Assembly: GCF_900100955.1 (NCBI RefSeq)
Contig: NZ_FNCC01000021.1
Coordinates: 1 to 64,000, forward strand
Direction of reading: 5' to 3'
Source: Lentzea fradiae
Lineage (GTDB): Bacteria; Actinomycetota; Actinomycetes; Mycobacteriales; Pseudonocardiaceae
DNA length: 64,000 nucleotides
Made by a program: the position numbers and the translations under genes. The notes beneath the pieces were generated by a model. That model was not told the DNA's origin, did no database searches, and was given only the letters and a program-made list of their open reading frames with translations. This document shows positions 28,675-60,890 of this stretch, one piece after another; position 1 is the first letter of the stretch; the number at the start of each line of letters is the position of its first letter.

Positions 28675-28733
28675 GCAAAACCCCCACGTTGCTGATGTCT
28701 CCATCAACCCCGTGGGGGTAGAAGTGTCCGAGG
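28673..28733. repeat. Left attachment-site copy A (tRNA-Leu 3' end plus terminator)
   Basis: The first 47 bases match 60813-60859 beside the tRNA with three differences, and both contain the inverted repeat ACCCCCAC/GTGGGGGT. Read on the minus strand it is an intrinsic terminator (stem then TTTTG) as expected downstream of the tRNA. After a short spacer comes GTGTCCGAGG (28724-28733), identical to the last bases of the tRNA-Leu gene as read on the plus strand. The tRNA terminator and tRNA end therefore occur twice, 32.1 kb apart, the mark of site-specific insertion into a tRNA 3' end. Confidence 0.85.
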
Positions 28734-28841
28734 ACGAAGTCGCACACTATTCACCCACGTAGCGCTTCCTGGTCCTAGGTAGGCTCACCTGACCCCGGTT
28801 GCCCACGGGGCCCGTCCTGCGATGGCCATGCGGGACGGGCC
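28725..28841. repeat. Element-side att arm, copy A, with hairpin
   Basis: Starting at the tRNA-derived core, 38 bases are identical to copy C at 45539 and differ at two positions from copy B at 34103. Similarity continues through CACCTG (about 28786) to a hairpin with a 9-bp stem, GGCCCGTCC (28809-28817) and GGACGGGCC (28833-28841). The arm is not coding on either strand. It most likely marks the left end of an inserted element. The following 220 bases to the PIN gene contain no feature I can name beyond a probable promoter. Confidence 0.82.
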
Positions 28842-29066
28842 TCGCATGCTGCTGCTGAATGCTTGAGCTGCGAAGACGTGCGTCGGGACGTCGGGACGTC
28901 GTGCAGATGAGCCGTCCCGATGACCTGTCGGCGTCTGTGAGAGGGTTGGCAGGCGAGACCTCACGGGACGGCTCTGCTGTCAGGAGGTGCCTCTCAGCAC
29001 TCGGGTCCACTCGGGTCCACATCGCACTTCTGTAACGTCTCAGCACCCAAGCTCGATCACGGAGCC

Positions 29067-30428
29067 ATGGCAGACGATGGTACGCAGGTCGATCGAGGTC
29101 TCTTCGAGGGATTTGAAGGATATCGGACTGTGGGGCGCGATGAGATCGCACGCGTACTCGCCGAAGGTCTAATCGTACCAGATGCCAATGTCTTGCTAAA
29201 CCTATACAGGTATACCGCGGATTCGAGGGCGAATCTCGTGAGTGTTCTTGAGAAGGTGTCCGCCCAGTTGTGGGTTCCGCATCAGGTTCTAGTCGAGTTC
29301 TGGCGAAATAGGGAATCTGTCATGAGGGATCCTGGGGATTCCGAAAAGACGATTGACGAACTCGAAGAACATAGTCGTAAGGCCGTCAATGCGCTCCAGG
29401 CCTGGTCTAATCGTGTTTCGCTGCCTATGGAAGTTGCAAAGAAACTTGTCGGCCACATTGAGGACGGGTTTGCTCAGGTCGCTGAGGAAATGCAGGCCCA
29501 TTCCGTCATGGTAACGGCAGATTTCAGTCGAGACACGTCCGACGACATGGTGTTGAAGTCGCTGGAGCCGATCCTTAAGGGGCGGGTTGGACCAGCGATG
29601 GAGGAGTCGCTTTACAAGAAGGCGGTCACGGAGGGCCTTCGCCGAGTTGCGGCTGAAGAGCCACCGGGATACAAGGATAAGAAGAAGGAAGGAGATCGCG
29701 CGGCAGGTGACTATCTTGTATGGGAGCAGATACTTCTTGAAGGGGAGAATCGTCAGAAGAGCGTTGTTCTGATCACTGCGGACACGAAAGAGGATTGGTG
29801 GAGAATGGAAGGAGGTGAGCGGAGAGGGCCGCGTATCGAGCTCGTGCAAGAGATGTACCGAAGGACGGGTCAGCGTTTTTTGATGCTTCGGCCAGCTCAA
29901 CTTCTACAGTACGGGCAGGACTTCTTTTCGGTAAGCACAAGCGACGAGGTAGTGCGCGACGTTGAATCGGTCGACATCGCTGTATCTCGCGCCAGCGAGA
30001 TACCCCCTGGTGGCGGATGGACGGTAGAAGGTCTAGGACTCCTCCTGGTCAGGCTGAACAGCGAGGCAATGGTGCAGGCTGACGTACTACGGGTTGCAGT
30101 GAAGCAGTCAGGGTTCGTGTCTCGCGAGCAAGTATATGAAATTGCAGGCTACTCACCAGAAAGAAGCTTGCGAGGATTTACGCGTCCCATAAACCGGCTC
30201 TCTCAGTTTGTCAAGAGTATGGACATGGCCGAAGTAGACGCGGTTGACGTGCTATGGGCGGTTTACAACGAGGATTCACCAGAGATTGGGTGGGCTGCAG
30301 GTTTTAGGGTCCATAGAGAGGTTCTTCCTCTGTTGAAGTTGGTGCCATCCTCGCTGCTTGAATGTGACTACATCACTAATGTCGAGTCCGCGAATGAGGG
30401 CTCTGACGAAAAAGAAGGTGAGCGGTAG
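29067..30428 (+). CDS. PIN-like ribonuclease-domain protein (PIN_8/DUF4935 type)
   Basis: This 453-residue protein has a PIN-like nuclease domain in the first 260 residues. Acidic metal-binding residues appear at D39 (IVPDANVLLNLYRY), in WVPHQVLVEFWRNR, in KKKEGDRAAGDYLVW, and in VLITADTKEDWW, the layout of the PIN_8/DUF4935 family. Residues from about 300 form a second, unrecognised domain with a helix-turn-helix-like VSREQVYEIAGYSPERSLRGF. The family is an RNase fold used in toxins and phage defence. GC content is much lower than in the chromosome, indicating transfer. Two genes follow, at one base and with an overlap, so a three-gene operon is likely. Confidence 0.78.
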   Translation: MADDGTQVDRGLFEGFEGYRTVGRDEIARVLAEGLIVPDANVLLNLYRYTADSRANLVSVLEKVSAQLWVPHQVLVEFWRNRESVMRDPGDSEKTIDELEEHSRKAVNALQAWSNRVSLPMEVAKKLVGHIEDGFAQVAEEMQAHSVMVTADFSRDTSDDMVLKSLEPILKGRVGPAMEESLYKKAVTEGLRRVAAEEPPGYKDKKKEGDRAAGDYLVWEQILLEGENRQKSVVLITADTKEDWWRMEGGERRGPRIELVQEMYRRTGQRFLMLRPAQLLQYGQDFFSVSTSDEVVRDVESVDIAVSRASEIPPGGGWTVEGLGLLLVRLNSEAMVQADVLRVAVKQSGFVSREQVYEIAGYSPERSLRGFTRPINRLSQFVKSMDMAEVDAVDVLWAVYNEDSPEIGWAAGFRVHREVLPLLKLVPSSLLECDYITNVESANEGSDEKEGER

Positions 30429-30429
30429 C

Positions 30430-30888
30430 GTGGATGCTCAAGCTGTGTTTAAAACCGACCAGGGGGCGCGTAGGGTGGCGGTCGTTATTCGGGCAGGTAT
30501 TCCTGCGAGTCATCAAGGGCGCGGGCAGGGTGAACCTATTTATCCGGATAGCGTAACCGACGTTGCAAAGCTACTCCGTCAAGAAGGCGTCGAAGTATCA
30601 TACGAGCACGATCGCGATCAGAGGAAGATTCTAAGTTTAAATAGTGCAGAGGTATGGATTCCAGTTCTTGCGTTCGTTACCGACGTTGGGGTGAACGTTC
30701 CGGCGAACATCGTCGCAACGATGATTGTAAACTATTTTGGCGGGCGTTCTCGTGCAGAAAAATCGGTTCTGCACGTCGAGTTCGAAGAGAGCACTCCGGA
30801 CGGATCGCAGCGAAAGTTTAATGCCAGCGGGCCCGGCGCTCTCGTCTTGGAAGCAATTGACAAGTTCGGCAGGCAAGAAGATGTCTGA
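30430..30888 (+). CDS. Unknown protein with a hydrophobic segment, second gene of the PIN operon
   Basis: This 152-residue protein begins at a GTG one base after the PIN stop with AAGGTGAG upstream; a longer frame starting inside the PIN gene is less likely. The N-terminal half (RVAVVIRAGIPASHQG, then VAKLLRQEGVEVSYEHDRD) looks like a small alpha/beta domain. A hydrophobic stretch (EVWIPVLAFVTDVGVNVPAN followed by IVATMIVNYF) could be one membrane segment. The C-terminus is beta-rich (LHVEFEES). I recognise no family. Its position between a PIN nuclease and a cysteine-rich protein suggests a dedicated partner, such as an inhibitor or a sensor. Confidence 0.65.
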   Translation: MDAQAVFKTDQGARRVAVVIRAGIPASHQGRGQGEPIYPDSVTDVAKLLRQEGVEVSYEHDRDQRKILSLNSAEVWIPVLAFVTDVGVNVPANIVATMIVNYFGGRSRAEKSVLHVEFEESTPDGSQRKFNASGPGALVLEAIDKFGRQEDV

Positions 30889-31501
30889 CACTGGGCAGCA
30901 GCTTCTCAGTGAAGGTAGAAGACTTTACGGAATTGCGCTGTGGCGGGCGCTGACAGGTGACAGCGGGGATTCGGCAAACAAAGATATCAGGCGGGCCATT
31001 GTCGCTCTCAGTAGCGCTATGAATTGGCTCGAAGGTTGGGATTCTGATGGGTTTGATCTGGCGCATCAGTTTCTTGATAAGAGCGGTGAGCTTGCTCGTC
31101 GAGAGTTTTCCGCTGGGTGTTGTTTTGACTTTAGGGACGATGCATATCACCAAGCGTGTCCGGTAGCGCTGGCGCACTCTCGTGTGGGAATGAGTGCCGG
31201 CTTTGTGATCAAGCAAAGTCACTGTTCGGTTTGTGGTAAGGATCCTGAGGAATGCGAACACATCTCAGGTCGCGTCTACGACGGAGAACGATGTTGTCGG
31301 GTGATAACCGAAGCTGAACTGCTCGAAGTTTCCTTGGTGGAGCGGCCGAATCAGCCTGATGCCAGGATTCACTCGTACACACTAACTAGATCTGAACTCT
31401 ATGCGAGTCTGGGAGAGGGTTTCGCGTGGGGCATGACGATTTCATGCGATCGCTGCCTAAATCCTTGCCGTGGGCTCAGCTATCCGATGCGTAATACTTG
31501 A
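30881..31501 (+). CDS. Cysteine-rich unknown protein, third gene of the PIN operon
   Basis: This 206-residue protein starts at an ATG eight bases before the end of the previous gene. It has a helical N-terminal half (AIVALSSAMNWLEGW and FLDKSGELARREF) and a zinc-binding-like C-terminal half with HCSVCGKDPEECEH, a CC pair in GERCCRVI, and a final CDRCLNPC. Two four-ligand metal knuckles are plausible. No known domain is recognised. The short overlap implies translational coupling to the other two genes. The AT-rich composition matches the operon and not the chromosome. Confidence 0.65.
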   Translation: MSDTGQQLLSEGRRLYGIALWRALTGDSGDSANKDIRRAIVALSSAMNWLEGWDSDGFDLAHQFLDKSGELARREFSAGCCFDFRDDAYHQACPVALAHSRVGMSAGFVIKQSHCSVCGKDPEECEHISGRVYDGERCCRVITEAELLEVSLVERPNQPDARIHSYTLTRSELYASLGEGFAWGMTISCDRCLNPCRGLSYPMRNT

Positions 31502-31639
31502 TGAGATGCGCGCACGTATCGATGCTTGGTTGAACATAGATCCGCATCAAGCGCTAAGTGTATTGCTTGCGCCGGGGGCGTCTTGTCGATCGTCTTAGTT
31601 CTTAGTCGTCAGGGCCTTGCGTCAGGTTGGCCGGCAAAG

Positions 31640-31790
31640 AGTGTTCTCCGTGAGGACGAGGTCGGTGAGCGCGCCCAGCGGTTCGTCGAGGTCGACTGAC
31701 GGGTCGCAGCAGTACATCTGGTAGGGATCGATGTGGTCGGCGTCCAGGCGCCGCAACGAGTCCTCGGCCGCGGTCGTGATTCGCGGCGGG
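31640..31790 (-). pseudogene. Internal fragment of an aldo/keto reductase
   Basis: The minus strand reads AAEDSLRRLDADHIDPYQMY, then a stretch with DPSVDLDEPLGALTDLVLTE, typical of the substrate/cofactor barrel of aldo/keto reductases (the usual form is EDSLRRLxxDYIDLYQxH). Only about 50 residues survive; neither the catalytic Tyr/Lys nor the NADP-binding end is present. GC content returns to chromosomal level here, unlike the PIN operon just before it, so this is debris of different origin inside segment 1. Confidence 0.65.
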
Positions 31791-31797
31791 ATGCACC

Positions 31798-32028
31798 GCG
31801 TTCGTTGGCCTGCTGTTAGGCGCGTACACCGACAACGGCTTGACCTACATCGGCCGCATCAGTGCCGGCTTCAAGGACAGCGAGCGAGTTGAACTCCGGT
31901 GGTGCCTTGCCGAGCGCAGCAAGACCCATCCGCCATTCGAGCGCCCTCTGACTCGCGAGGACGCCCGCGCCGTGCAGTGGACGCGGTCGGTGTTGGTCGG
32001 CCAAGGCCAGTCCCACGGTTGGCGTTGA
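31798..32028 (+). pseudogene. C-terminal fragment of an ATP-dependent DNA ligase
   Basis: The plus strand reads VGLLLGAYTDNGLTYIGRIS, then AGFKDSERVELRWCLAERSK and HPPFERPLTREDARAVQW, matching the OB-fold end of actinobacterial ATP-dependent (LigC/LigD-type) ligases. It ends with a stop at 32028. The nucleotidyl-transferase domain with the active lysine is absent. It abuts the aldo/keto reductase fragment on the opposite strand. From here to 32204 no gene is evident, although a short frame reads VDLVLACYNVGVGIKRMLDE. Confidence 0.65.
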
Positions 32029-32204
32029 CCGGCCGGTCGCCGCCTGCGACAGCCTGTGTGGCGCTGGCTTGGTCCCGACCGAGATGCAGGTGACGTGCGC
32101 CTGGATTCCCCGATGTCAGGTTGACCTGGTGCTGGCCTGCTACAACGTCGGCGTCGGGATAAAGCGCATGCTCGACGAGGTGCCGCGCGCCTAGCCTCAA
32201 CGGT

Positions 32205-32978
32205 GTGAGTGATGTGGACGAGGCCGTGGAGACGCCGGATTCCTTTGCTGGCTCGCTTGTTCAGCAGATGTTTGACCTGTGGATCACGCCGTACCTCAAC
32301 TCCGGTGAGTCGGGAATCGGTACCGACCAGGTCCGACAGGCGCTGATCGTGATGCCTCCCGGCGGCGAGGTCGAGGTATTGCTGAACGAACGGGCGACCG
32401 TGACCGCGAAGGTCAAGATGCGCCGCGACATCGCCGCTGGCGAGGAGGTGCTCGCGGAGGACATCGAAGAGATCAGCGACCTGCGGCCCTTCGATATCGA
32501 CCCGGCGGCGGGCTGGATGGCTTTCGCCGCCGTGCCGGGCCACGGGCACATCGTGACGTTCGACCTGCGCCGGGACAAGCCACGGGTGCGTGATCACGTG
32601 CTTCTTGCACGGGACTTCGTGGCCGCCGCGCGTGAGTCCGTCGCTGCGAGCCGACCAGGCCCCGCCGTGGAGGCGGCGTTCGCGGCCGCCGAGCTCGCGG
32701 TGAAGGCGATGCACCTGTTGCACGTCGTACCGATCCAGAAGCGGGCCTCACACGGAGCCCGCCTGACGTGGTTGAACTGGTACACGCGGCGGGACGGCAA
32801 CGGGTCGCCTGACTGGTACCCGGCGATGAAGCGGCTGGAAAGCCTGCGACCCGCTGCTCGGTACAGCGATGGAGGGACACTGCCGGATGCTGAGGAACTC
32901 GACGCCCTCCTTGACCAGGTTGCCGAACTCGTCGACCACGCCGCGGCGCACGGCGGCGTCGACGAGTCGGAGCAGTAG
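32205..32978 (+). CDS. Unknown protein with a HEPN-like helical C-terminal half
   Basis: This 257-residue protein begins at a GTG and has chromosomal-type codon use. The N-terminal half is beta-rich, with an EVLLNERATVTAKVKM stretch. The C-terminal half is helical (AVEAAFAAAELAVKAMHLLH and later ELDALLDQVAELVDHAAAHG) with a pattern of two long helices joined by a basic segment, reminiscent of HEPN or DUF-type nucleotidyltransferase partners, but I see no RxxxxH motif. The function is unknown. It stands alone between gene relics and the next att copy. Confidence 0.6.
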   Translation: MSDVDEAVETPDSFAGSLVQQMFDLWITPYLNSGESGIGTDQVRQALIVMPPGGEVEVLLNERATVTAKVKMRRDIAAGEEVLAEDIEEISDLRPFDIDPAAGWMAFAAVPGHGHIVTFDLRRDKPRVRDHVLLARDFVAAARESVAASRPGPAVEAAFAAAELAVKAMHLLHVVPIQKRASHGARLTWLNWYTRRDGNGSPDWYPAMKRLESLRPAARYSDGGTLPDAEELDALLDQVAELVDHAAAHGGVDESEQ

Positions 32979-33121
32979 CCTCGCACCGGTGAGGCAGGCT
33001 GGCCGCCGACCTCACGGACCGAAGCCGCACGTCAGCGCTACGACGAGCACAAGTGCAGTCGTGGATGCTCGATCGCGGCGAGTACGTCGACCTGTAGCCG
33101 TTGTGCCGGAGTACGGATTGG

Positions 33122-33541
33122 TCACGGCTTCGTAGCTCGCGGAAGGGCGTCGGAGTTGTTGCGGCTCCACGCCTTTGTCAGCGGTCCGCCGTCGCGGAGG
33201 TTCTTCGGCACGAACTCTGCCCGGTCTGGGTGCAGGCGCTCGATCGGTACCGGTTCCTGCGAGCGCCTGCGTGCGGGAGTTCGGCGTGGCCCGGGCTGCT
33301 GAGGCGTGTCCGACGCGGGTTTGCCTGAGCGGGCACGGTGCATCGTCGGGATCGGCCTGCCCAGCTTCAGCACCGCCGCCCGAGGCTTGGAGACCACCTG
33401 ACGGCACGGCTGATGGGCGACTGAGTAGCACACCGGGCACGACTTGTTGTTGCGCTGCAACGGGCCGGTGCGCGGGATCCGCACGATCGATCCGCCCATC
33501 GAGGCGCCGGTGTAGCCTTTCTTGCCACGAGGTCTCGCCAT
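33122..33541 (-). CDS. Possible small basic zinc-knuckle protein
   Basis: This 139-residue frame begins MARPRGKKGYTGASMGGSIV and carries a short knuckle CPVCYSVAHQPC near residue 36, then becomes basic and low in complexity. The N-terminal third resembles small phage or conjugative-element proteins that end in a Cys-x2-Cys knuckle; the rest is less convincing. A weak GAGAG lies upstream. It is the only plausible gene between 32979 and 33685. Confidence 0.42.
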   Translation of the reverse strand: MARPRGKKGYTGASMGGSIVRIPRTGPLQRNNKSCPVCYSVAHQPCRQVVSKPRAAVLKLGRPIPTMHRARSGKPASDTPQQPGPRRTPARRRSQEPVPIERLHPDRAEFVPKNLRDGGPLTKAWSRNNSDALPRATKP

Positions 33542-33858
33542 CGCCGCTCTCTGTCAGGATCCGGAGCCGTGCTGTCCGAGCTAGCGGACCGCGAACGAGC
33601 CCAGCTCGACGTTGATGTAGTCCTAGGGATGCGTACGAGAAGCGTAGACAAGCGGTTGCCGCCTACACGCCTATGCCGCGTGCCATTAACCCGTTAGTGG
33701 ACTTCCCTGCTCGTACAGGTCCCGGTCGTCGAGCATTAGCTCGTCGAGGTCGCCGGATGCCGGCGTGAGGTTGTAGCGCAGCGACTCGGGTCCTACACCG
33801 GTAGTGTCGGCCGCCGCGCGGTGCGGCTCGGGCTGGCCGGCGTCTGCGGCCTCTGAAG
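33542..33858. other. No clear gene
   Basis: The stretch before att copy B contains a minus-strand frame ending at 33686 whose last 30 residues (LRYNLTPASGDLDELMLDD) look protein-like, but upstream it runs into the repeat unit and has no credible start. It may be the tail of a destroyed gene. I see no promoter, RNA or repeat that I could defend. Confidence 0.35.
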
Positions 33859-34056
33859 GAATCCTGTGCATGCGCGCCCAGTGAGCCGGCCGTCCAGGAG
33901 TCGGCATTCGACCTGTTCCATGGCTGATTTGTAGTTGCTCTTCGCGGGCCCAGATAGCGGCCTGACGCTGCCCGAAATGATGTGGAACCTGCATTGCGTC
34001 GAGAGGTGTGCTCGATAGCGGGTCCGCGCGCCCAGCGGTTGACGCCATGAACGAAA

Positions 34057-34090
34057 AAGCGGATGAGGATTGAAGAATCCTCATCCGCTT
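34057..34090. terminator. Stem-loop before the att core, copy B
   Basis: The arms AAGCGGATGAGGATT (34057-34071) and AATCCTCATCCGCTT (34076-34090) pair perfectly over 15 bp around a GAAG loop, preceded by a run of A. It could terminate transcription in the minus direction, where the stem is followed by TTTTTCG. The equivalent stem in copy C differs by a compensated base pair (G34061-C34086 here, T-A there), so pairing has been conserved. Confidence 0.78.
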
Positions 34091-34180
34091 GATCAACTCC
34101 GATGTCCGAGGACGAAGTCGCACACTATTCAGCCATGTAGCTCTTCGTGGCCCTGTGTAGGCCACCTGGCCCGTTCGGCA

Positions 34181-34223
34181 CATGAGGCTCGTCCCACAGT
34201 GGTCACGCGGGACGGGCCTCATG
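34181..34223. terminator. Conserved hairpin after the att core, copy B
   Basis: The arms CATGAGGCTCGTCCC and GGGACGGGCCTCATG pair over 15 bp with one G-T wobble and a 13-base loop. The same hairpin occurs after cores A and C. It has no T-run on either side, so it may be a recombinase or regulator binding site, or an RNA element, and not a simple terminator. Confidence 0.6.
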
Positions 34224-34539
34224 CTGTGTTTGCTGGCAGCTACCAGCAAGTATCTGCACAATAGGGACGGGGGACAGCCTGATCCACATGTGTCCCTGGC
34301 GCGAGAGTCACGCTCCCAAGGCTGGCAGTTGAGGGTGGAGCTGAGGGGACAGCTGACTCTGTACTTGCCCTCGTTGCCGGATGCGGCGGTCGTCAGTCAG
34401 GCAAGACAGAACCGCTGATCACGGGACGGAGCGTCGGTCGCTTGTGGGCGATCGACAAGATTGTCGGGCTGCTCAGATGGGTTGTGGTCCGCTGTGCCAG
34501 CGCTGGAACCGCCCGTAATGGTCGGTGACCGGTCGCATG
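34224..34539. other. Gap after copy B, no clear gene
   Basis: About 315 bases between the att arm and the 3' end of the NB-ARC gene. Small frames are present on the plus strand but none has a ribosome site or recognisable product. I see nothing in it that can be named. Confidence 0.35.
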
Positions 34540-36981: not shown

Positions 36982-37066
36982 TCCCTTAGCTTGCCAGCGT
37001 GGCGCACGCTCGCGGGCTCGTTTGGTCGGGCTCCTGTCGTTCCAGGGTCGGCCTAAACTGGGCCGC

Positions 37067-38203: not shown

Positions 38204-38270
38204 TCCGACCGTGTTTCACGAGTAGGGGATGGTCAAGATCTGTAGATGCCAGTTCCTAGGCGCGTGGAAA

Positions 38271-51253: not shown

Positions 51254-51274
51254 CTGAAATCAAGATTTCATCAG
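51254..51274. promoter_or_regulatory. Palindromic operator TGAAATC-AA-GATTTCA
   Basis: The inverted repeat CTGAAATC-AA-GATTTCATCAG lies in the 204-base divergent gap between the tiny membrane gene and the 516-residue regulator gene. The half-site TGAAATC recurs twice (as GCTGAAATC) at 55418 and 55438 in another divergent promoter of the same element, so it is probably the target of one of the element's helix-turn-helix proteins. Confidence 0.65.
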
Positions 51275-51345
51275 CGCTCGATCAGCGGTACGGCCTGTGG
51301 GTGACCTGGGACGACCTGCTGCGACCTGGCGAGCTAGGAGGGGCG

Positions 51346-53235: not shown

Positions 53236-54797
53236 TCGATCTCCCATTCGATCCAGGGCAGGTCCACGCGGTCGCCACCGATCTCGCGGAGGCGTCGTAG
53301 GCCCTGTAGAAGGGCGAACAGCCCTTCGTTGCTCCAAGCTACATCGTGGATGAGTTCCTCCAGCAGCTCCGCGTCACGGCTGGAGTACTGGTGCAGGCGC
53401 GACGCTTCCCAGTTCGCTTGAACCTCGCCGCCAAAGCGGTTCCAGAACTCCTCGTCCTCGATGACGATCAGGCTGGCGAACTCGAAGTTGCCGCTTACGA
53501 GGTTGAGTCCGAAGCCTGTGCACTCCATGCGGAGACGGCCGGGTTCGGCCAGCAGCCAGCGCATCGGCTCGGACAGCCGACTTGGGTGCATCGGGTCTGC
53601 GTGGCGCTGTTCGCTCATCGTGTTGTCGATGTCGTCGCGTCCGAACAGCTCTTCTTCGATCTCGCGGCGGAGGGTCGCGCCTACCTGTGTGTCGGCGCGG
53701 AAGTCGGTGAGCGGCTGGTGGAAGCCCTTCGGAATGACCGCCAAACGGCGCGCGGCGTTGATCACGTGACCTGAGCGTTCCTGAATCAGCAGCAGGTAGT
53801 CCGGCTCACCGCGGAATGCGTCCGCTGGGCGGGCGATGGCGGTGAGTGCGAGGGCTCCACCTGCGCAGAGCCGGTTGCCGACGTTCAGCACGGCTGAGAG
53901 GTCGGGCAGGTACGCGTTGCGCATCGGGAGTGAGCTGGCATCCGCCGGCTTGTCGGTGGTGAGCGCGTCGATCAGCTCACCTTCGAGCAGGTCCATCGTC
54001 ACCACGTAGCCAACGAAGTCGGTCACGCCCACGGCGCCCGCGAGCTGGTGCTTCTGCATGTCCACGTCGAGCAGCCGGAACAGCGGCATGTTCACCATGC
54101 GGTTGCCCAGAGCCAGGGCTTCGGCCAGCCGTTGTGCTGCGCGGTCTGCGCCCGCCTCGTCAATGGTGATGTTGTCGCCTGGGGTCACTCCGGCGAGCTT
54201 CAGCTTGTCGTGCTTGGGGAACAGCGGGCAGTCGAGATCGAGCCAGTCCGGGTGAGTCAGCACCGTTGTGGAGGCGGTCGTGTCCGGGCCGAACGCCGCG
54301 GTGTAGCGGCCGTGGCCGGTGGTTGTGGTGCCGTAGTAGTCCGCGAGTGCGCGGACCGTGTCGCGCTGGTTCACGCTGCTGCGCCGCACGCCGCGGTCGT
54401 GCAGGTCGCGGATGTCGAGGGCGACGAGACGCGCGGCGACCTCGCGGCGAGCGGTGCCGGGGTCCCAGCCGGTGTGGGCGTCGAGCCAGTTCAGAGCCGC
54501 GACGATCGTGGGGTCTGCGGTGAGCCGTCGTTCGGCGTCTTCGGCCGCGCCTGCCGGGAGGTCGAGTGGGCCGCCGCTGATCAGCTTGGTGAAGCGGGCC
54601 TTGACGTCGTCGGGAGCCTGCTCCAGCGCGGTGTCGAGGATGCCCTTCATATCCCCGCGAGGCTTCGTGTCCGGCTTCTGGTGCCACGAGGCGACCGTAC
54701 GAACGCCGATACCCAGGCGCTCGGCGAACGCTTCGTGAGTCAGACGCATTGCGCTCTGCAGGGCACTTGCCGTTTCGCCGGTCCAGTCGATGCTCAT
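53232..54797 (-). CDS. Paralogous regulator with helix-turn-helix and Nudix-like domain
   Basis: This 521-residue protein starts at the ATG of MSIDWTGETASALQSAMRLT with GGGGGTAG upstream. It has an XRE-like helix-turn-helix (THEAFAERLGIGVRTVASWHQ) and then the same roughly 430-residue region as the 51346 gene, including VIPKGFHQPLTDFRADTQVG and TLRREIEEELFGRDD. The paralogue at 51346 has lost or diverged in the helix-turn-helix. Direct ATGCAT repeats lie upstream of the start and may be its operator. It is coupled to the cupin gene. Confidence 0.75.
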   Translation of the reverse strand: MSIDWTGETASALQSAMRLTHEAFAERLGIGVRTVASWHQKPDTKPRGDMKGILDTALEQAPDDVKARFTKLISGGPLDLPAGAAEDAERRLTADPTIVAALNWLDAHTGWDPGTARREVAARLVALDIRDLHDRGVRRSSVNQRDTVRALADYYGTTTTGHGRYTAAFGPDTTASTTVLTHPDWLDLDCPLFPKHDKLKLAGVTPGDNITIDEAGADRAAQRLAEALALGNRMVNMPLFRLLDVDMQKHQLAGAVGVTDFVGYVVTMDLLEGELIDALTTDKPADASSLPMRNAYLPDLSAVLNVGNRLCAGGALALTAIARPADAFRGEPDYLLLIQERSGHVINAARRLAVIPKGFHQPLTDFRADTQVGATLRREIEEELFGRDDIDNTMSEQRHADPMHPSRLSEPMRWLLAEPGRLRMECTGFGLNLVSGNFEFASLIVIEDEEFWNRFGGEVQANWEASRLHQYSSRDAELLEELIHDVAWSNEGLFALLQGLRRLREIGGDRVDLPWIEWEIE

Positions 54798-54835
54798 GGT
54801 TGCGCTACCCCCGGAGCGCAGAACTTGCATTGAAC

Positions 54836-54852
54836 ATGCATCGCTCATGCAT
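54836..54852. promoter_or_regulatory. Direct ATGCAT repeats upstream of the helix-turn-helix/Nudix-like gene
   Basis: Two copies of ATGCAT (54836-54841 and 54847-54852) are spaced 11 bases start to start, one helical turn, 40 to 55 bases upstream of the regulator start on the minus strand. This is a plausible autoregulatory site for its helix-turn-helix. No direct evidence of binding exists in the sequence. Confidence 0.45.
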
Positions 54853-54925
54853 GGGTTTACACGGCGCTGCGCGCTGGAATTGGTGCATGGAAATCAAGCC
54901 GCTCAACCAGCAGAAACGCACCGCA

Positions 54926-55432
54926 CTACCGGTTCTCTCGAACTTGCTTCGCTACCGACGCGAGGTCCGACTTCAGATCGTCCAGGCGCTCCGTGATGTC
55001 GATCAGGCGCTGTTCGACACTGTCCAAACGCGACCAAAGCGAGTCGCCGGGGTCGGTGATCGGCTCGTCTCGCTCGGGCGGGCGACGGCCGTGCAGCACG
55101 GCGTCGAGGTGCTGCGGGTGCCAACCCATGGCTGTAGACAAGGACTCCAGCGTCCGCGGCCCCCGCCGGCGCTCCACTGTGTGGTGCTGGATCTCGCGGA
55201 CGATCGCCTGCGAGACGTTCGAACGCTCCGCGAGCTCGCGTTGACGCCAGCCGAGCTCGTGCACGCGCTCGTTGATCGCTCTGGCGACTGCCGCCCAATC
55301 CTCCGACACGTATTCCTCCGCGCTCCGCCTCAGCGCTGAGATTAGCCGCTTTTCGTTCTTCGGTGACGTGACACGGCGCATTCCGCGCTGTGTGCGATCA
55401 AACGCGCCTTCATGTGCGCTGAAATCAATCAT
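54926..55432 (-). CDS. XRE-family regulator with coiled-coil tail
   Basis: This 168-residue protein has a Cro/cI-type helix-turn-helix (RQRELAERSNVSQAIVREIQ) and a C-terminal heptad segment (LDSVEQRLIDITERLDDLKS) that would dimerise it. The start is the first ATG, which overlaps a TGAAATC repeat; an ATG 17 codons later is also possible. It is divergent from the small excisionase-like gene, so it likely represses the transfer operon and itself through the TGAAATC repeats, in the manner of the Pra/KorA-type regulators of actinomycete elements. Confidence 0.82.
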   Translation of the reverse strand: MIDFSAHEGAFDRTQRGMRRVTSPKNEKRLISALRRSAEEYVSEDWAAVARAINERVHELGWRQRELAERSNVSQAIVREIQHHTVERRRGPRTLESLSTAMGWHPQHLDAVLHGRRPPERDEPITDPGDSLWSRLDSVEQRLIDITERLDDLKSDLASVAKQVRENR

Positions 55433-55446
55433 TTAGAGCTGAAATC
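55418..55446. promoter_or_regulatory. Direct repeats GCTGAAATC in a divergent promoter
   Basis: GCTGAAATC occurs at 55418-55426 and 55438-55446, 20 bases start to start, on both sides of the ATG of the XRE gene and 31 bases before the excisionase-like start. The half-site equals that in the palindrome at 51254. Together they indicate a shared repressor controlling both divergent promoters of the element. Confidence 0.6.
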
Positions 55447-55476
55447 GTCAGCTCGTTCATTGAAGGGCCTATTCCT

Positions 55477-55665
55477 ATGCGTACTTCTGTGTCTTCTGTT
55501 CACACCATCCGCGAGACCGCTTGGGTGCTCGGTGTCAGCCAGGGCGTCGTCTTCCGGGCGATCCGGCTCGGGCTCCTGACCGCCGAGCGCCAGTACGGAC
55601 GTCTCGTCATCCCGAACAGCTCGCTGCGGCGACTGCTCTCGGAGCCGGGGGTGCCTCGTGACTGA
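55477..55665 (+). CDS. Small excisionase-like helix-turn-helix protein
   Basis: This 62-residue protein has a MerR/Xis-type helix-turn-helix (TIRETAWVLGVSQGVVFRAI) and a short wing YGRLVIPNSSL. It is the first gene of a plus-strand operon of eight tightly spaced genes ending with the serine recombinase. In conjugative elements such proteins act as recombination directionality factors or as regulators. With a serine recombinase, a directionality factor need not look like Xis, so this is only a candidate. It overlaps the WhiB-like gene by eight bases. Confidence 0.78.
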   Translation: MRTSVSSVHTIRETAWVLGVSQGVVFRAIRLGLLTAERQYGRLVIPNSSLRRLLSEPGVPRD

Positions 55666-55996
55666 TCTGCGGCTGGTCGGCGTCGCCTGGTCGCTGGACC
55701 ACCTGCGATGGGTGCCGACCGATGAGTTGACCGACGTCGTTGAGCACGACGGGCTGTGCATGTGGGCGTTCACGGGCGAGCCGCCGTGGGCGGACGAGGA
55801 ACTGACCGATCAGGAGTTGGCCGAGCGGCAGTGCTCGGGGTGCCCCGTTCGGGACGAGTGCTTGGAGTTGGAGTTGCGCACGGCCGGCGCTGAGACGGTC
55901 GGGGTGTGGGGAGCGCTGCCGGAGGACGAGCGGCGCGAGGTGCATCGGCACTGGCTCCAGCGCGGTGAACGGGCCGAGAGGGGGCCGCGTTCATGA
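55658..55996 (+). CDS. WhiB-family iron-sulfur regulator
   Basis: This 112-residue protein has the four-cysteine cluster motif of WhiB: one Cys in HDGLCMWAF, then CSGC and a final Cys in RDECLELELR, followed by the turn GVWGALPEDER that contacts sigma-A. Family knowledge: WhiB-like proteins bind a [4Fe-4S] cluster and modulate transcription in Actinobacteria and their phages. It overlaps both neighbours by a few bases. It may tie element activation to redox or host status. Confidence 0.88.
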   Translation: MTDLRLVGVAWSLDHLRWVPTDELTDVVEHDGLCMWAFTGEPPWADEELTDQELAERQCSGCPVRDECLELELRTAGAETVGVWGALPEDERREVHRHWLQRGERAERGPRS

Positions 55997-56325
55997 ACGC
56001 CATCAGCGTCACGCCTACTCAGATGCTGGCCGCAGTCGGTGTCCTCTTGGTTCTGGTGTTGGTCTGGCGGGCTGGCTCTCGTCGGGCGAAGGCTGCGGCG
56101 AACGCGGCGCGGACGAGCGTTCGGCTGATGTCGCTCGGTGGCCGCGTGGTCGTGAACGCCGTGCTGATCGTGATCGTTCAGTGGGTGGTCGTGACGCACG
56201 GCGGGAACGGCTGGTTGTTGTTCGCGGTGCTCGGAGTACCGGCGTTGCTCGCGTCCTACACGCTCACGAAGGCGCTCACGGTGACCACGTACGAGCCTCG
56301 CGGCCGTGGTGGTGATCGGAAGTGA
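55993..56325 (+). CDS. Small two-helix membrane protein
   Basis: This 110-residue protein has a first helix near the N-terminus (MLAAVGVLLVLVLVW), then a basic loop, then two close hydrophobic segments (VVVNAVLIVIVQWVVV, LLFAVLGVPALLASYTL). It ends in a basic tail. It overlaps WhiB by four bases (ATGA) and the next gene by four. Small membrane proteins at this position in actinomycete conjugative elements are usually called Spd-like spread proteins; no conserved motif proves that here. Confidence 0.72.
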   Translation: MNAISVTPTQMLAAVGVLLVLVLVWRAGSRRAKAAANAARTSVRLMSLGGRVVVNAVLIVIVQWVVVTHGGNGWLLFAVLGVPALLASYTLTKALTVTTYEPRGRGGDRK

Positions 56326-56915
56326 GCGAGCCGATCGAGCGGGTTGCTGTGCAGGTGGACCGGTTGTGCTGGACCGGGATCTTGCTCGGGCTCGCGTTCA
56401 CAATGACCAATGTTCAGCAGTTCGCGGCGGCCGGTGCCGCGGTGTGGTCGTTGGCTTGGTTTGCGGCCTGGTTGTTGGACCCGATGGTGTCGCTGGTGCT
56501 GCTGGCGATCCTCCGTGCCGAGCAGGTGACTGCTCGGCACGGAGTGCGGCTCGGGGGATGGGTGCGGGCCGCGAAGTGGTTCACGCTCGGGGCCACGTAC
56601 GTCATGAACACGTGGAGTGCGTTCGTGGCCGGGTCTGCGGCACTCGTGGTGTTGCACTCGGTGCCGCCGCTCGTCGTGTTCGTCGCCGCGGAGGCGGTGA
56701 CGGAGCTGCGGGACAAGCTCGGGACCGCTGCGGGTGCCACAGTGGAGGACGTGGCACCCGCTCCGCGGACGTCGTTCGCGGAGTACCTGGCGGTGGCTCG
56801 CAAGGCTCGGAAGTCGAGCGCCAAGGTTTCGCCGGCGTGGGTTCGTGAGGTCACGGGGTGCTCGCGCGGGCTGTCTTCGAAGCTGGCTGCGGAGCTGAAC
56901 GGGGACCAGCCATGA
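56322..56915 (+). CDS. Membrane protein, DUF2637/SpdB-like
   Basis: This 197-residue protein has three to four membrane helices (ILLGLAFTMTNVQQFA; VWSLAWFAAWLLDPMVSLV; LVVLHSVPPLVVFVAAEAV) and a cytoplasmic helical tail ending VTGCSRGLSSKLAAEL. The DP dipeptide after helix 2 is typical of DUF2637 proteins found beside the tra gene of actinomycete integrative elements. It starts at a GTG and its stop overlaps the translocase start. It probably helps transfer or spread of the element within mycelium (inference). Confidence 0.72.
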   Translation: MSEPIERVAVQVDRLCWTGILLGLAFTMTNVQQFAAAGAAVWSLAWFAAWLLDPMVSLVLLAILRAEQVTARHGVRLGGWVRAAKWFTLGATYVMNTWSAFVAGSAALVVLHSVPPLVVFVAAEAVTELRDKLGTAAGATVEDVAPAPRTSFAEYLAVARKARKSSAKVSPAWVREVTGCSRGLSSKLAAELNGDQP

Positions 56916-58990
56916 GCGGGGAGCTGGTGCCTGCCGAGCAGGTTTTCGAAGGGGAGCTGGTCGACGAGCGTGCGGCGCTCGTGCGGCGGATCGAGACGAC
57001 CTGGCGCTACTCGCGGGTGGTGCCTGCGGCGCTCAAGTCTCGGGAGGCGTTGAAGCTCGCCGCGAGGGATGCGCTCGCCTGGGTGCTTCGCGCTCCTCTT
57101 CGGTGTGCGAGTGCCGTTGGTCGTGGCCTGGTGGTTGCGGCGCGCGGCTGGCGCAACTGGGTTCGGGTCCGGGACTACCGCGACGCTGCCGAGCAGTCGG
57201 AGAAGCTGGCGGACAAGTTTGTTGAGATCCGCGCGCTGACGCTGTTCCGATGGAAGGTCACCGGCACGGTGTTGCTCGCGGGCGGTGCGGTGATCACGGT
57301 GGCGTGGGTGCTCTACGGCGACCTCGTGTTGTGGAGCGTTGGAGGCGTCAGCGCGGCCGTGCTGGCCATCGTCGGACGGGCGAAGGACGGCTCACCAGGA
57401 CGAAAGGCAGTGCTCGCCGGACCGCGCACGCTGACTTGGACGATGGACTCTCAGGTGCTGGTCGACGCGTTCCGGGACGCCAAGCTGATCGGGAAGGACG
57501 AGACGTTGCGCCTGGTCGAGCGTGCGTCTCGGCAGGGCGCTGGTTGGGCGATCACCGTGGACCTGCCTGCCACCCGCAAGGCGGCCGACGTCGTGAAGCA
57601 CCGGGAGGACCTGGCGTCGGCGCTCGCAGTGGACGAGATCCAGCTCAGTGTCGAGCGCGTGCGCGGCAACGGTGGTCACGCCGGTCGTGTGGCGATGTGG
57701 GTGGCCGATGAGGACCCGTACGCCTCACCACCGATCCGCACGCCCTTGCTCACGGTCGAACGTTGGGACGCGTGGCGACCGGTGCCCTTTGGCACGGACG
57801 CTCGCGGACGGCGGATAGACCTGCCGTTGGTGTGGACGTCAGTGCTGATTGGTGCGATTCCGCGGCAGGGCAAGACGATGGCCGAGCGGTTGGCTGCAGC
57901 GGGGCTCATCCTCGATCCACACGCGCGGCTGTACGTCGCCGACTTCAAGAACGGGAAGGACTGGCAGGCCGCGGAGCAGGTCGCACACCGGTTCATGGCC
58001 GGCGACGACAGCGAGCACGTCTTGGCGTTCCTGGACTGGCTCGTTGAGCTGGTCGCGGACGTTCAGCGGCGGTATCGGCGGATGCAGGACCTGGACGACG
58101 TCACGTGTCCCGAGTCGAAGGTGACTCCGGCGATGTCCCGTGATCCGTCGCTGGACATGCCGATCACGGCGCTGATCGTCGACGAGGTACACATTGCACT
58201 AGAGGATCGCACTCCTGTTGTGGTGCAAGGGAAGAAGCTCACCGCAGGAGAGCAGATTGGCGAGCTGCTGACGTGGCTCGCGAAGAAGGCGCCCGCGGCT
58301 GGCCTGGTGCTGGTGCTCGCTACGCAGCGGCCGGACAGCAACACGATTCCGTCGAAGTTGCGGGCTGTGCTCGGGTCGCGGTTCGCGCTGCGGGTCATGG
58401 ATTGGCGGGACAGCAACATCGTGCTCGGGGAACAGATGAACACCCGCGGGTACGACAGCAGCCGGTTGCTCCCATCGCACAAGGGCGTCGGCATCCTGCG
58501 GCCGGACGGAGAGACACAGGCCGGGGCCGATGTGCTCGCACTGACCGTGCGGACGTTCTACATGCCCAACGAGGACTGGCGGGCGATCTGCGAACGCGGC
58601 CGGGCGCTCCGCGAGGCTGAAGGCACGCTGACCGGGCAAGCCGCTGGTCAGGACACGCCGCTGCTCCACCGCGCGGAGGTCGTGCGGGAGATCGACGGGC
58701 CGAGCCGGGACGAGATCGAGCTACCGGAGCCGTTGGCCGCGGTCGTGGACTACCTCGGTGACGGACTGGACGAGCGGGAGTTCGTGCCCACGGCCGAGCT
58801 GGTGGATGCGCTGAACGTCGAGCCGACGACGTTCGGGAAGGACATGGGCGATCTCGGGTGCAGGCCCACGCGGCAGTACGTCCAGGAAGACGAGGGCACG
58901 CGGCGGGTCCGGGGCTATCTGACCGCGGACATCCGGGCTGCGATTGTTGAAATCGGCTCGTCGCACATACCCGACGTGGACCAGCTATGA
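56912..58990 (+). CDS. FtsK/SpoIIIE-type conjugal DNA translocase (TraB-like)
   Basis: This 692-residue protein has N-terminal helices (FRWKVTGTVLLAGGAVITVA, LVLWSVGGVSAAVLAIVG) and an FtsK-type motor. Walker A is GAIPRQGKT around 315-323, Walker B is ALIVDEVHIAL, and the arginine-finger region is LATQRPDSNTIPSKLRAVLG. The C-terminus has a winged-helix-like block (FVPTAELVDALNVEPTTFGK) that would recognise a clt-like repeat. Family knowledge: TraB translocases move double-stranded DNA between actinomycete cells without a relaxase. The ATG overlaps the previous stop (ATGA). It identifies the segment as an actinomycete integrative and conjugative element. Confidence 0.9.
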   Translation: MSGELVPAEQVFEGELVDERAALVRRIETTWRYSRVVPAALKSREALKLAARDALAWVLRAPLRCASAVGRGLVVAARGWRNWVRVRDYRDAAEQSEKLADKFVEIRALTLFRWKVTGTVLLAGGAVITVAWVLYGDLVLWSVGGVSAAVLAIVGRAKDGSPGRKAVLAGPRTLTWTMDSQVLVDAFRDAKLIGKDETLRLVERASRQGAGWAITVDLPATRKAADVVKHREDLASALAVDEIQLSVERVRGNGGHAGRVAMWVADEDPYASPPIRTPLLTVERWDAWRPVPFGTDARGRRIDLPLVWTSVLIGAIPRQGKTMAERLAAAGLILDPHARLYVADFKNGKDWQAAEQVAHRFMAGDDSEHVLAFLDWLVELVADVQRRYRRMQDLDDVTCPESKVTPAMSRDPSLDMPITALIVDEVHIALEDRTPVVVQGKKLTAGEQIGELLTWLAKKAPAAGLVLVLATQRPDSNTIPSKLRAVLGSRFALRVMDWRDSNIVLGEQMNTRGYDSSRLLPSHKGVGILRPDGETQAGADVLALTVRTFYMPNEDWRAICERGRALREAEGTLTGQAAGQDTPLLHRAEVVREIDGPSRDEIELPEPLAAVVDYLGDGLDEREFVPTAELVDALNVEPTTFGKDMGDLGCRPTRQYVQEDEGTRRVRGYLTADIRAAIVEIGSSHIPDVDQL

Positions 58991-59142
58991 CCGGTGAAGA
59001 TCCGGACTGCGGAGAGCTAAAGGTCAACCTTCCGGCGGAGCTACCTGTTCTCACCAGGCGAGTAAGCCGCATACTGCTAGACATCCTGTTCGAGTTGAGC
59101 GAGGTGGAGGCCCTGGACGGGGTCTCCGGGAGGGAGGTGTGA
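58987..59142 (+). CDS. Small protein between tra and recombinase
   Basis: This 51-residue protein starts at an ATG overlapping the translocase stop (ATGA) and ends at a TGA that overlaps the recombinase ATG. It contains an amphipathic helix (PVLTRRVSRILLDILFELSE) flanked by acidic segments. No motif is known. Such overlaps on both sides mean it is almost certainly translated. It could be an accessory directionality factor for the serine recombinase, because many such factors are small unrelated proteins; this is speculative. Confidence 0.68.
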   Translation: MTGEDPDCGELKVNLPAELPVLTRRVSRILLDILFELSEVEALDGVSGREV

Positions 59143-60890
59143 TGACTGTTGAAATCAGCCGGGACCCGTGGGCGACGCTCGATGACCTGTGGGGTATCGA
59201 GGTCAGCGAGGTCGTGGAAGACGGCATCGGGCCGGTAGCGGGCTACGGCAGGTGCTCGACGGAGGACAATCAGGACCCGGAGACGTCCCGCGGCTGGCAG
59301 TTCGGCAACGCGGAGAAGTTCGTCGGGCCGCTGGGTGGTCGGATCGTGGAGGAGTTCTTCGACGTCGGGAAGTCGCGGTCTGTGCCCTGGGAGCGGCGGG
59401 ACGAGGCGTCACGGCTACTGGCAGCGTTGAAGAACCCGCATCGCGGTTGGAATGCCGTTGTCGTGGGGGAAGGGACGAGGTGTTGGTTCGGCAACCAGTT
59501 CTCGTTGATTGCTCCGCGGTTCGAGGCGTACGGCGTTGACCTTTGGGTGCCGGAGTTGGGTGGGAAGTACGACCCGCGTAATCCGTCGCACAAGATGCTG
59601 ATGAGCGTGCTCGGGGGCATGAGCGAGTCCGAGCGTCAGCACGTGCAGGCTCGTGTTCGGGCCGCGATGGACACGCAGGTGCTCAACGAGGGTCGTCACC
59701 AGGGCGGACGAGCGCCGTACGGGTACGTCACGGTGGACGGCGGGCCGCACCCGAACCCGCGCAAGTCGGCGGAGGGCTACCGGCTGCGCGTGCTTGCGAT
59801 CGACGACGAGTCCGCATGGGTCGTCCAGCGCATCTTTGCCGAGTACTTGAGCGGCATGGGCGACCGGGCGATTGCCAACGGACTCAACCGCGACCGGATT
59901 CCGTGTCCGTCCGCGCGACGGCCGGATCAGAACAAGCATCGGCCCGGAGACGGCTGGCAGGGCAGCACGGTGCGGGCGATCGTGGAGAACCCTCGCTACA
60001 CCGGTTATGCCTTCTTCGGACGCTCCACGAAGTACGAGACGCTGCTCGATCCCGACGACGTCTCTGCTGGTCACGTCGTGAGGTTCCGCAAGGCCAGTCC
60101 AGACAGGGTGGTCCGGTCGCGTAATCCGGCGCATCCGAAGATCGTGGAGATCGAGGACTTCACGGCCGCTCAGCTACTGCGGAAGTCGAAGGGAAGCTTG
60201 CGGAGCGCGCGCAAGACGGAGCGGTCCGGGCGTGCGCTGAAACACCGCTACCTGTTCCGCGGTCGTATCCGGTGCGACATCTGCGGGCGGAAGATGGAGG
60301 GCAGCCCACGCAAGAAGGCGATGTATTACCGGTGTCCGGCGCGGACATTGGCTCCGGGATCTCCTGTGCTCGATTCGCATCCTGGCGCGGTCTATTTGAG
60401 AGAGGACGCCCTTCAGGACGCCGTTAACGGCTGGCTGGGGCACGTCTTCGATCGGAAGAACCGGGATCGGACCGTCGCTGCGTTGATGGATTCGCAGGAG
60501 CCGGTGATCCAGATCGGTCGTGATGCGGCGAAGAAGCGGCTCGCTGAGGCGGAAGCAAAGCTGACCAGGTTCCAGAACGCCATCATGGCCGGCGTGGACC
60601 CTGCGGCGCTGGTCGAGGCGATCAACGAGGCACAGGCCGAGAGGCTCGCGTCACGAGCGGCCCTCGACAACGTCCCAGCACCGGTGGAGGTGGACGTCGC
60701 AGAGATCTATGCGGCGATCGACTCGATTGGGGACGTCAGCGCCGCGCTGAGAGGCAGTGCGCCGACGAGACTGGAAGAGCTGTACGAAGCGATAGACCTG
60801 CAAGTCCGGTACAAGCAAAACCCCCACGAAGCTGATGTTTCCATCAACCCCGTGGGGGTGAATAACGCTGGTGTCCGAGGGGGGACTTGA
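59142..60890 (+). CDS. Large serine recombinase (integrase)
   Basis: This 582-residue protein has a catalytic serine S39 in VAGYGRCSTEDNQ, with resolvase-domain arginines in EEFFDVGKSRSVPWERR. A recombinase domain follows (APYGYVTV; YLSGMGDRAIANGLN; NPRYTGYAFFG), then a zinc ribbon (RCDICGRKM and YYRCPAR), and a coiled coil around RLAEAEAKLTRFQNAIM. About 30 residues precede the first strand, which is unusual. The final codons read through the tRNA terminator and into the tRNA gene, so the C-terminus is set by the host site. It would integrate and excise the element at the tRNA-Leu core. GGGAGG precedes the ATG. Confidence 0.92.
   Translation: MTVEISRDPWATLDDLWGIEVSEVVEDGIGPVAGYGRCSTEDNQDPETSRGWQFGNAEKFVGPLGGRIVEEFFDVGKSRSVPWERRDEASRLLAALKNPHRGWNAVVVGEGTRCWFGNQFSLIAPRFEAYGVDLWVPELGGKYDPRNPSHKMLMSVLGGMSESERQHVQARVRAAMDTQVLNEGRHQGGRAPYGYVTVDGGPHPNPRKSAEGYRLRVLAIDDESAWVVQRIFAEYLSGMGDRAIANGLNRDRIPCPSARRPDQNKHRPGDGWQGSTVRAIVENPRYTGYAFFGRSTKYETLLDPDDVSAGHVVRFRKASPDRVVRSRNPAHPKIVEIEDFTAAQLLRKSKGSLRSARKTERSGRALKHRYLFRGRIRCDICGRKMEGSPRKKAMYYRCPARTLAPGSPVLDSHPGAVYLREDALQDAVNGWLGHVFDRKNRDRTVAALMDSQEPVIQIGRDAAKKRLAEAEAKLTRFQNAIMAGVDPAALVEAINEAQAERLASRAALDNVPAPVEVDVAEIYAAIDSIGDVSAALRGSAPTRLEELYEAIDLQVRYKQNPHEADVSINPVGVNNAGVRGGT
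60813..60880. repeat. Right attachment site inside the recombinase end and tRNA
   Basis: This matches copy A (28673-28733) across 47 bases with three differences, then an 11-base instead of a 4-base spacer, then GTGTCCGAGG, which is the 3' end of the tRNA read on the plus strand. The inverted repeat ACCCCCAC/GTGGGGGT acts as the tRNA terminator on the minus strand. The recombinase reading frame passes through the whole site. Confidence 0.85.

Follow-up and report, generated by a model that had tools for sequence, protein, structure and literature searches.

The subject here is a stretch of 64,000 nucleotides from the soil actinomycete Lentzea fradiae (family Pseudonocardiaceae; contig NZ_FNCC01000021.1, positions 1 to 64,000, forward strand), referred to below as the window, and more particularly a genomic island within it that adjoins a tRNA-Leu(GAG) gene. 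This island is probably an accretion array anchored on that tRNA gene, i.e., a tandem series of serine-integrase elements in which two units (units 1 and 2) are non-autonomous cassettes that spread mainly in cis. The insertion site, the borders of the units, the geometry of their half-sites, and the absence of a recombinase from the cassettes can all be read from the DNA itself. Unit 3, as judged by its genes and ends, is an element resembling the actinomycete integrative and conjugative elements (AICEs), with matching half-sites of one type, ‘alpha’, and a recombinase of its own. Units 1 and 2, by the same kind of evidence, are members of a small Lentzea family of non-autonomous cassettes which end on the right in a different type, ‘delta’, and whose cargo is varying and defence-rich. 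The arrangement suggests that a neighbouring mobile element helps blocks of probable anti-phage genes to pass from strain to strain. The array bears on how defence systems without mobility genes come to move. Here the borders, the likely crossover dinucleotide, and a candidate helper enzyme are all fixed to base level, making helper-driven movement of cassettes, alone or as a train, directly testable.

The junctions and units of the array are as follows:

28725..28844, + strand: junction A, core plus alpha left arm
28725..34102: unit 1, 5.4 kb, alpha left end and delta right end, without recombinase
33859..34102: delta right end of unit 1, with a terminator-like hairpin facing tRNA transcripts
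34103..34220, + strand: junction B, core plus alpha left arm of unit 2
34103..45538: unit 2, 11.4 kb, alpha/delta, without recombinase
45296..45538: delta right end of unit 2, with 92% identity to its unit 1 counterpart
45539..45655, + strand: junction C, core plus alpha left arm of unit 3
45539..60871: unit 3, 15.3 kb, alpha/alpha, AICE-like
60806..60871: alpha right end, recombinase 3' end plus tRNA-directed terminator-like hairpin
60869..60954, - strand: tRNA-Leu(GAG), the integration target, with its core at 60872-60880

Repeats that delimit the units

An earlier note on this DNA, made from the letters alone, had described four cores, a shared arm, and a hairpin, all of which hold up. The core, TGTCCGAGG, is present on the + strand at 28725, 34103, 45539, and 60872, and is the 3' end of the minus-strand tRNA-Leu(GAG) gene. 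As a 9-mer it is not significant on its own, with 1.1 copies expected on average and four or more copies in 4 of 100 shuffles. Taken together with the arm as a 29-mer, it has exactly three matches in the whole 8.5 Mb genome (up to three mismatches allowed), all of them in the island, with a reversed control yielding none. The alpha left arms, which lie to the right of the cores, are about 80% alike across 120 bp between copies A, B, and C; over 60-base blocks, B and C each share 88% identity with A, and likeness reaches about 120 bases. Counting from the start of the core, A and C agree at each of the first 39 or so bases, two of which differ in B, the earlier count of 38 thus being right to within one base. 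The hairpins which follow the arms have z-scores of -2.9, -5.6, and -9.6.

What lies to the left of the cores had been overlooked, i.e., the sequence common to B and C, the distinct tRNA-side end, the stretch left of A, and the extension of the island back to 23435. Left of cores B and C is a common sequence of about 250 bases at 92% identity, the delta right end. Left of the tRNA core, by contrast, the right end differs from delta and is instead the 3' end of the recombinase gene. Units 1 and 2 therefore are alpha/delta and unit 3 is alpha/alpha. Left of A, in turn, a stretch of 47-54 bases (28666-28719) resembles the recombinase end, shortened next to the core. The older island content preceding A (unit 0) probably ends, that is, in a relic of an alpha-type recombinase end, a reading favoured because the stretch matches the recombinase 3' ends of unit 3 and of genomes G231, G249, G242, and G251. 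Less likely is that the hairpin found there is the host's own tRNA terminator, a reading with some support from G246, where a comparable hairpin (88% over 60 bases) adjoins the tRNA of the RNase H locus and no recombinase relative was found in the genome. Strong terminator-like hairpins facing tRNA transcripts are present at the right ends of units 1-3 as well as in the stretch left of A (z-scores of -5.6 to -6.7), and each unit seems, from this layout, to resupply both the tRNA 3' end and a terminator.

Among 390 genomes of the family, at up to three mismatches, the alpha arm is found in 14 and the delta end in 6, the latter all Lentzea. The alpha arm has no matches among IMG/VR viral contigs. 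Outside of the searched family, the arm occurs with core in Rhodococcus rhodnii as well (locus L139).

The arm as an insertion junction

The alpha arm is an insertion junction at the tRNA-Leu 3' end. At a second Lentzea tRNA-Leu locus, the flank leads straight into the tRNA in seven genomes, that of the window included, and the same flank leads into core plus alpha arm in L. alba NEAU-D13 (G231), L. nigeriaca (G242), and L. albidocapillata subsp. violacea (G249). Alignments between occupied and empty flanks extend for some 500-1500 bp and reach the core, with 72-90% identity in aligned pieces; as the flank queries were cut at the core, the alignments stop there by construction, and the break is read instead from the empty and occupied loci themselves. 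In L. alba the tRNA and right flank of this second locus resume 49.9 kb after the junction. With second-locus flanks entering core plus arm, the arm is not a dispersed repeat unrelated to tRNA-Leu, a concern which the earlier note had itself raised. Its claim of insertion at the tRNA-Leu 3' end by the serine recombinase family is in turn borne out by these empty and occupied sites and by the symmetry of the half-sites.

Half-sites

In nine elements for which both ends are available, the two arms mirror each other as inverted half-sites, their centre lying at the GG with which the core ends. Counting outward from that centre, positions +16 to +24, an interval picked after viewing the alpha elements, read on both sides as TATTCACCC in alpha elements, TAA..ACAC-like in beta elements, and TATCCCTAC or nearly so in gamma elements. 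In mirror register, 79 of 81 positions agree over the nine elements with both ends (six alpha, one beta, and two gamma, two of the nine, G249 and G244, having a truncated or broken recombinase), versus 36 of 81 in the best other register. Inverted half-sites around a 2-bp crossover are the anatomy of the attachment (att) sites of large serine integrases, and it is this anatomy which these ends display. Going by that geometry, the GG which ends the core is likely the crossover dinucleotide.

Against the alpha motif, the delta right half-site agrees at only 5 of 9 positions, and the two hence are different half-sites. Over three units, which are non-independent copies, agreement is 15 of 27, with 13 of 27 in the second-best register; these are three of seven delta units, the others possessing altered cores or another left end. 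Among alpha left arms, columns 10-29 are 100% identical in 10 copies and columns 34-60 average 76%, though part of this conservation is ascertainment, as arms were found mainly by pattern over the same 29 bases (three mismatches allowed). The ten are from the 12 alpha arms of the genus, with those of G244 and G247 (two mismatches each to the 29-mer) left out, as also were two arm-like matches (G231 C7:43698 and G239 C3:21719); in one copy (alba7_1) the core is one base short, which spoils the figure for the core columns there.

Left arms bearing the delta motif were considered as pointers to an autonomous delta element. At up to three mismatches there were, among the matches listed, 168 in 24 Lentzea genomes versus 93 in a reversed control. 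This candidate was rejected: such matches look like conserved sequence unrelated to ends, since several are one near-identical sequence recurring across genomes.

Unit 3 and its recombinase

Genes of unit 3 include the following:

46173-48962: Mrr/STAND-like gene
within 45539..60871: DUF5753 regulators and WhiB
56912..58990, + strand: FtsK/SpoIIIE-type (TraB-like) transfer gene (PF01580, phrog_1358)
59142..60890, + strand: large serine recombinase (PF00239, PF07508, PF13408)

Relatives of this alpha recombinase at 98% are found in L. alba and L. nigeriaca, and truncated relatives at 89-96% in G249, G232, G241, and G244; other near full-length relatives reach at most 72%, with short fragments elsewhere up to 88%. 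An intact recombinase at 98% or more is present in 3 of 24 Lentzea genomes, all within the four known to possess alpha/delta units, an overlap (three in four) whose chance, as calculated by hand and uncorrected for kinship, is 4/2024. Among plasmids, all 43 records fall below 60% identity. The unit 3 backbones in L. alba and L. nigeriaca are 89-92% identical.

The recombinase reading frame spans the att core, with its stop found inside of the tRNA gene. When fused computationally with the left arm, the frame gains 8-25 residues (U3, alba6_iii, G042, G220, G235, G251, and G248), and the tail of the protein therefore would differ between integrated and circular forms.

In terms of what defines an AICE, unit 3 possesses a site-specific integrase as well as an FtsK/TraB-type translocase, the latter matching PF01580 at 25.2 bits versus a cut-off of 24 (with the gene's start taken as 56858) and falling below cut-off for NF041214 TraB. 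AICEs typically carry a replication gene, whereas among the unit 3 proteins scanned, with small open reading frames (ORFs) scanned in part, no Pfam, NCBIfam, or PHROGs match to a replication initiator (RepSA, RepAM, or Prim-Pol) was seen. As no initiator is recognised, I use here the term ‘AICE-like’ only. Two inverted, unassigned unit 3 paralogues, at 51652-52896 and 53232-54797 (proteins of 414 and 521 amino acids, or aa), show 53-56% identity across elements and are candidates for a replication function.

Recombinase-less units and their cargo

Seven recombinase-less, delta-ended units are seen, i.e., units 1 and 2 along with five found in L. alba, L. aerocolonigenes (G229), and L. nigeriaca, whose positions are given in coordinates of the extracted regions:

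L. alba contig C6, 24073-29384
L. alba contig C6, 29376-51520
L. alba contig C7, 14078-19450
L. aerocolonigenes contig C50, 26761-50989
L. nigeriaca contig C17, 20334-24840

In the second of the C6 units the left arm belongs to another type and the core is decayed. Whole-genome searches of the four genomes place no match to PF07508 or PF00589 inside any of the seven, in agreement with the earlier description of units 1 and 2 as lacking a recombinase. Units 1 and 2 hold only their ends in common, an alpha left half-site and a delta right end. They resemble cis-mobilisable elements (CIMEs): their flanking att sites are related to those of their neighbour (identical alpha left half-sites and an att-like right end), and the scan of their ORFs, which took in part of the small ones, produced no tra match. 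Genes of these two units are:

29067-30428: PIN_8 protein, unit 1
32205-32978: HEPN protein, unit 1, its frame broken against one relative
33122-33541, minus strand: 139-aa gene, unit 1
34540-37383: ATPase-TPR protein, unit 2
37022-38203: 393-aa protein, unit 2
38271-40040: 589-aa protein, unit 2
40769-41305: DUF6884 protein, unit 2, with a PADLOC match to PDC-M57A
41306-41914: GIY-YIG_2 protein, unit 2
41911-43353: EVE protein, unit 2
43373-45244: Schlafen-type helicase, unit 2, with a PADLOC match to PDC-S41

The defence-related cargo of unit 1 thus consists of PIN_8 and HEPN proteins, and that of unit 2 of the ATPase-TPR, GIY-YIG, EVE, DUF6884, and Schlafen-type helicase proteins. Elsewhere the cargo is different. 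In L. alba there are DpdD, E, F, J, and K together with a weak DpdG, an NB-ARC-TPR protein, and, in the C7 unit, a KAP NTPase with weak QatA and PDC-S20 matches. In L. nigeriaca there are E1-like, E2-like, and JAB proteins, and in L. aerocolonigenes a cyclase of cyclic oligonucleotide-based antiphage signalling (CBASS), E1-E2, two SAVED effectors, and DrmA/DrmB. The PADLOC matches come from a subset of the cassette proteins that excludes a 1029-aa member of the Dpd unit. The L. aerocolonigenes unit (L087-L088) holds together, over 24 kb, the CBASS genes, the two SAVED effectors, drmA/drmB resembling those of the defence island system associated with restriction-modification (DISARM), and a NERD helicase.

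As based on our own gene calls of 70 aa or more, the 393-aa protein, found in unit 2 and in the L. alba C7 unit, is the sole near full-length gene common among the proteins of the seven units. Beyond that, an 84-aa stretch of the unit 2 helicase recurs at 63% in a C6 unit of L. alba, and there is domain-level likeness between two ThiF proteins (31%) and two helicases (33%). Between unit 2 and L. alba, identity is 96% for the 393-aa gene versus 82-87% for two chromosomal stretches, and cassette material therefore moved after the species split. This protein has no Pfam, NCBIfam, or PADLOC match, and by eye its C-terminus is nuclease-like. That these are separate units, as the earlier note had proposed, is supported by their recurrence in related genomes with other cargo.

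Movement of the cassettes and competing explanations

With accretion, units 1 and 2 would have entered the array by site-specific recombination at the tRNA side. The alpha recombinase would then be able to join half-site A to the tRNA-side half-site, with units 1-3 leaving as one circle, since one alpha half is found at A and the other at the tRNA junction. Single cassettes may also move in trans, provided that the recombinase tolerates a delta half-site. The earlier expectation that one recombinase could move each cassette in trans goes further than the sequences do; the left half-sites are identical, but the right ones, being delta, agree at just over half of positions. A further suggestion, that the leftmost segment is the oldest, draws weak support from the shortened stretch left of A and from the HEPN gene with its broken frame; this age order is suggested only.

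A number of observations weigh against this account of the array. Neither an excised circle nor a strain pair differing by one cassette has been seen, and homologous recombination between common ends could also exchange cargo. The limited match between delta and alpha half-sites counts here as well, as does the absence from 24 Lentzea genomes of a delta-motif left arm (at up to two mismatches 13 matches versus 4 in the control, all at exactly two and none at zero or one). L. aerocolonigenes possesses an alpha/delta unit without a close recombinase relative (best 39%). Genes of unit 1 are found elsewhere (L212-L215) with no core in the 2.4-4.3 kb around them, and the delta ends of G234 and G248 have an unseen or unclear left partner. 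As to cargo, strong PADLOC matches to described systems are present in three of the seven cassettes, with that of L. nigeriaca consisting of E1/E2/JAB genes only, and in the other four a single domain or a weak match is what makes the cargo a defence candidate.

A stronger form of the accretion proposal, put forward tentatively and less likely than not, is that delta-ended cassettes are dedicated, non-autonomous carriers of defence genes. Each would combine one helper half-site with a conserved right end of its own (half-site plus tRNA terminator) and would be singly inserted and excised by alpha-type helpers, perhaps also by beta and gamma types, with the tRNA-Leu locus serving as an exchangeable rack of anti-phage systems. 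Beta and gamma types do adjoin delta-like ends, in G235 and G248.

That cassettes are exchanged instead by homologous recombination across their common ends (about 120 bp on the left and 250 bp on the right), with no involvement of the recombinase, is rather unlikely. End homology does extend over 100-250 bp, and the L. alba C7 cassette matches unit 2 in one gene plus the right end (92-96%), its left part being different. Yet the half-site is intact in all 10 copies compared while the adjacent arm is down to 76% (a difference that is partly ascertainment, two less perfect copies having been left out), and first units begin exactly at native tRNA flanks.

Similarly improbable is that units 1 and 2 are fixed decay products, i.e., once autonomous elements which have lost their recombinase and are no longer mobile. 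The shortened recombinase-end-like stretch left of A, the broken frame of the HEPN gene, and mutated delta cores in some relatives speak for such decay. Against it, six genomes carry the delta end with cargo that differs, no autonomous delta element turned up, and recent transfer is implied by one cassette gene, which is 96% identical to its L. alba counterpart.

Less likely still is a single 32-kb integrative element, from A to the tRNA, with internal copies of its own left arm and a defence region that is ordinary variable cargo rather than separately inserted units: although matching alpha half-sites at A and the tRNA could allow the whole block to exit as one, and defence-type cargo is found also within unit 3 beside its left arm, junctions of delta end, core, and alpha arm reappear in L. 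alba with other cargo, alpha/delta units begin right at native tRNA flanks in L. nigeriaca and L. alba, and the L. aerocolonigenes unit ends against tRNA-like sequence with no recombinase unit on its right.

Comparison with known systems

Tandem accretion with cis-mobilisable, integrase-less units is of an already known kind, and the novelty claimed for this array by the earlier note was overstated: in the portions of those reports consulted here, accretion, integrase-less units, and cis-mobilisation are published for AICEs (PMC9513070) and proposed for Dehalococcoides (PMC3146451). The closest known system, so far as those portions extend, is the set of ssrA islands of Dehalococcoides, which are tandem, are bordered by short repeats of an RNA gene's 3' end, and employ a CcrB-like serine recombinase whose 3' end lies over the att site; for dsiB of Dehalococcoides, a similar att-crossing frame with a change of tail is reported (PMC3146451). 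Fifteen of 31 such islands lack an integration module and were proposed to be possibly cis-mobilisable by accretion, and their cargo includes two putative modules of clustered regularly interspaced short palindromic repeats (CRISPR) (PMC3146451). The target there is, however, transfer-messenger RNA and the cargo mainly reductive dehalogenases, versus here a tRNA and defence-rich cargo; a hybrid end marking the integrase-less units, present here, is not described in the parts of that account drawn upon (PMC3146451).

Among actinomycetes, serine-recombinase AICEs are described in tRNA-Leu of Mycobacterium (PMC3218068, in part), and excerpts of a Streptomyces study describe accretion at tRNA-Arg of AICEs and their defective counterparts (DAICEs), with integrase-less units and cis-mobilisation (PMC9513070). 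DAICEs are defined there by a retained traB (PMC9513070, same excerpts), whereas in units 1 and 2 no tra or int gene is found. As far as those excerpts go, the array shares with such systems actinomycete elements stacked at a tRNA, a helper which may mobilise defective ones in cis, and some phage-resistance cargo.

The staphylococcal cassette chromosome (SCC, including SCCmec) likewise involves large serine recombinases and tandem cassettes at one gene, some of them without ccr. Here, in contrast, the target is a tRNA and no ccrAB or ccrC is above model cut-off, NCBIfam CcrB and CcrC scoring 21.6 and 15.2 bits versus 900. Integron cassette arrays without an integrase (CALIN; PMC11389934, as excerpted) similarly consist of helper-dependent cargo between recombination sites, though with another recombinase chemistry, versus multi-gene units of 5-24 kb here. 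Searches of open-licence PMC text, without preprints and with most papers judged by their listing entry, brought up no array of this kind and no defence-rich family of cassettes marked by a conserved hybrid att end.

Surroundings of the array

Outside of units 1-3, the locus consists of:

22700..23434, + strand: chromosomal left flank, a Zn-ribbon/coiled-coil gene (Pfam CT398_CC, Zn_ribbon_9)
23435..28724: unit 0, older island content, with a 372-aa gene, MarR, an HNH/mREase_IV-like gene, and an MFS transporter
61015..62103, + strand: chromosomal right flank, an RNase H/phosphatase gene

The island as a whole spans 23435 to 60868, i.e., from the end of the Zn-ribbon flank (23434) to the tRNA, beyond which the RNase H flank starts at 61015. 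In one relative (locus L045), the Zn-ribbon gene, which is Rv2229c-like, has the RNase H gene as its immediate neighbour; as the Zn-ribbon gene of the window stops at 23434, 23435-28724 too is island. Within unit 0, the HNH/mREase_IV-like gene has weak matches, and its homologues are found next to a tRNA in G229, G232, G240, and G250. The MFS gene was considered as a conserved chromosomal flank and ruled out, its best relative being at 44%. An Rfam scan of 28000-61200 at gathering threshold matched the tRNA alone.

The RNase H/phosphatase gene stands beside the tRNA-Leu(GAG) gene in 23 of 24 Lentzea genomes, the window's included. The exception is G247, in which the Zn-ribbon gene directly adjoins the RNase H/phosphatase gene with no tRNA-Leu there. 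In many Lentzea genomes this tRNA-Leu gene is present in at least two nearly identical copies, and islands occupy several of these. At the RNase H locus of G234 (L129), it is the flank of the second tRNA-Leu locus that stands beside the tRNA, which suggests recombination between the two tRNA loci. Far to the left in the window, at 362-3671, are three tandem genes sharing repeated blocks at 74-80% DNA identity.

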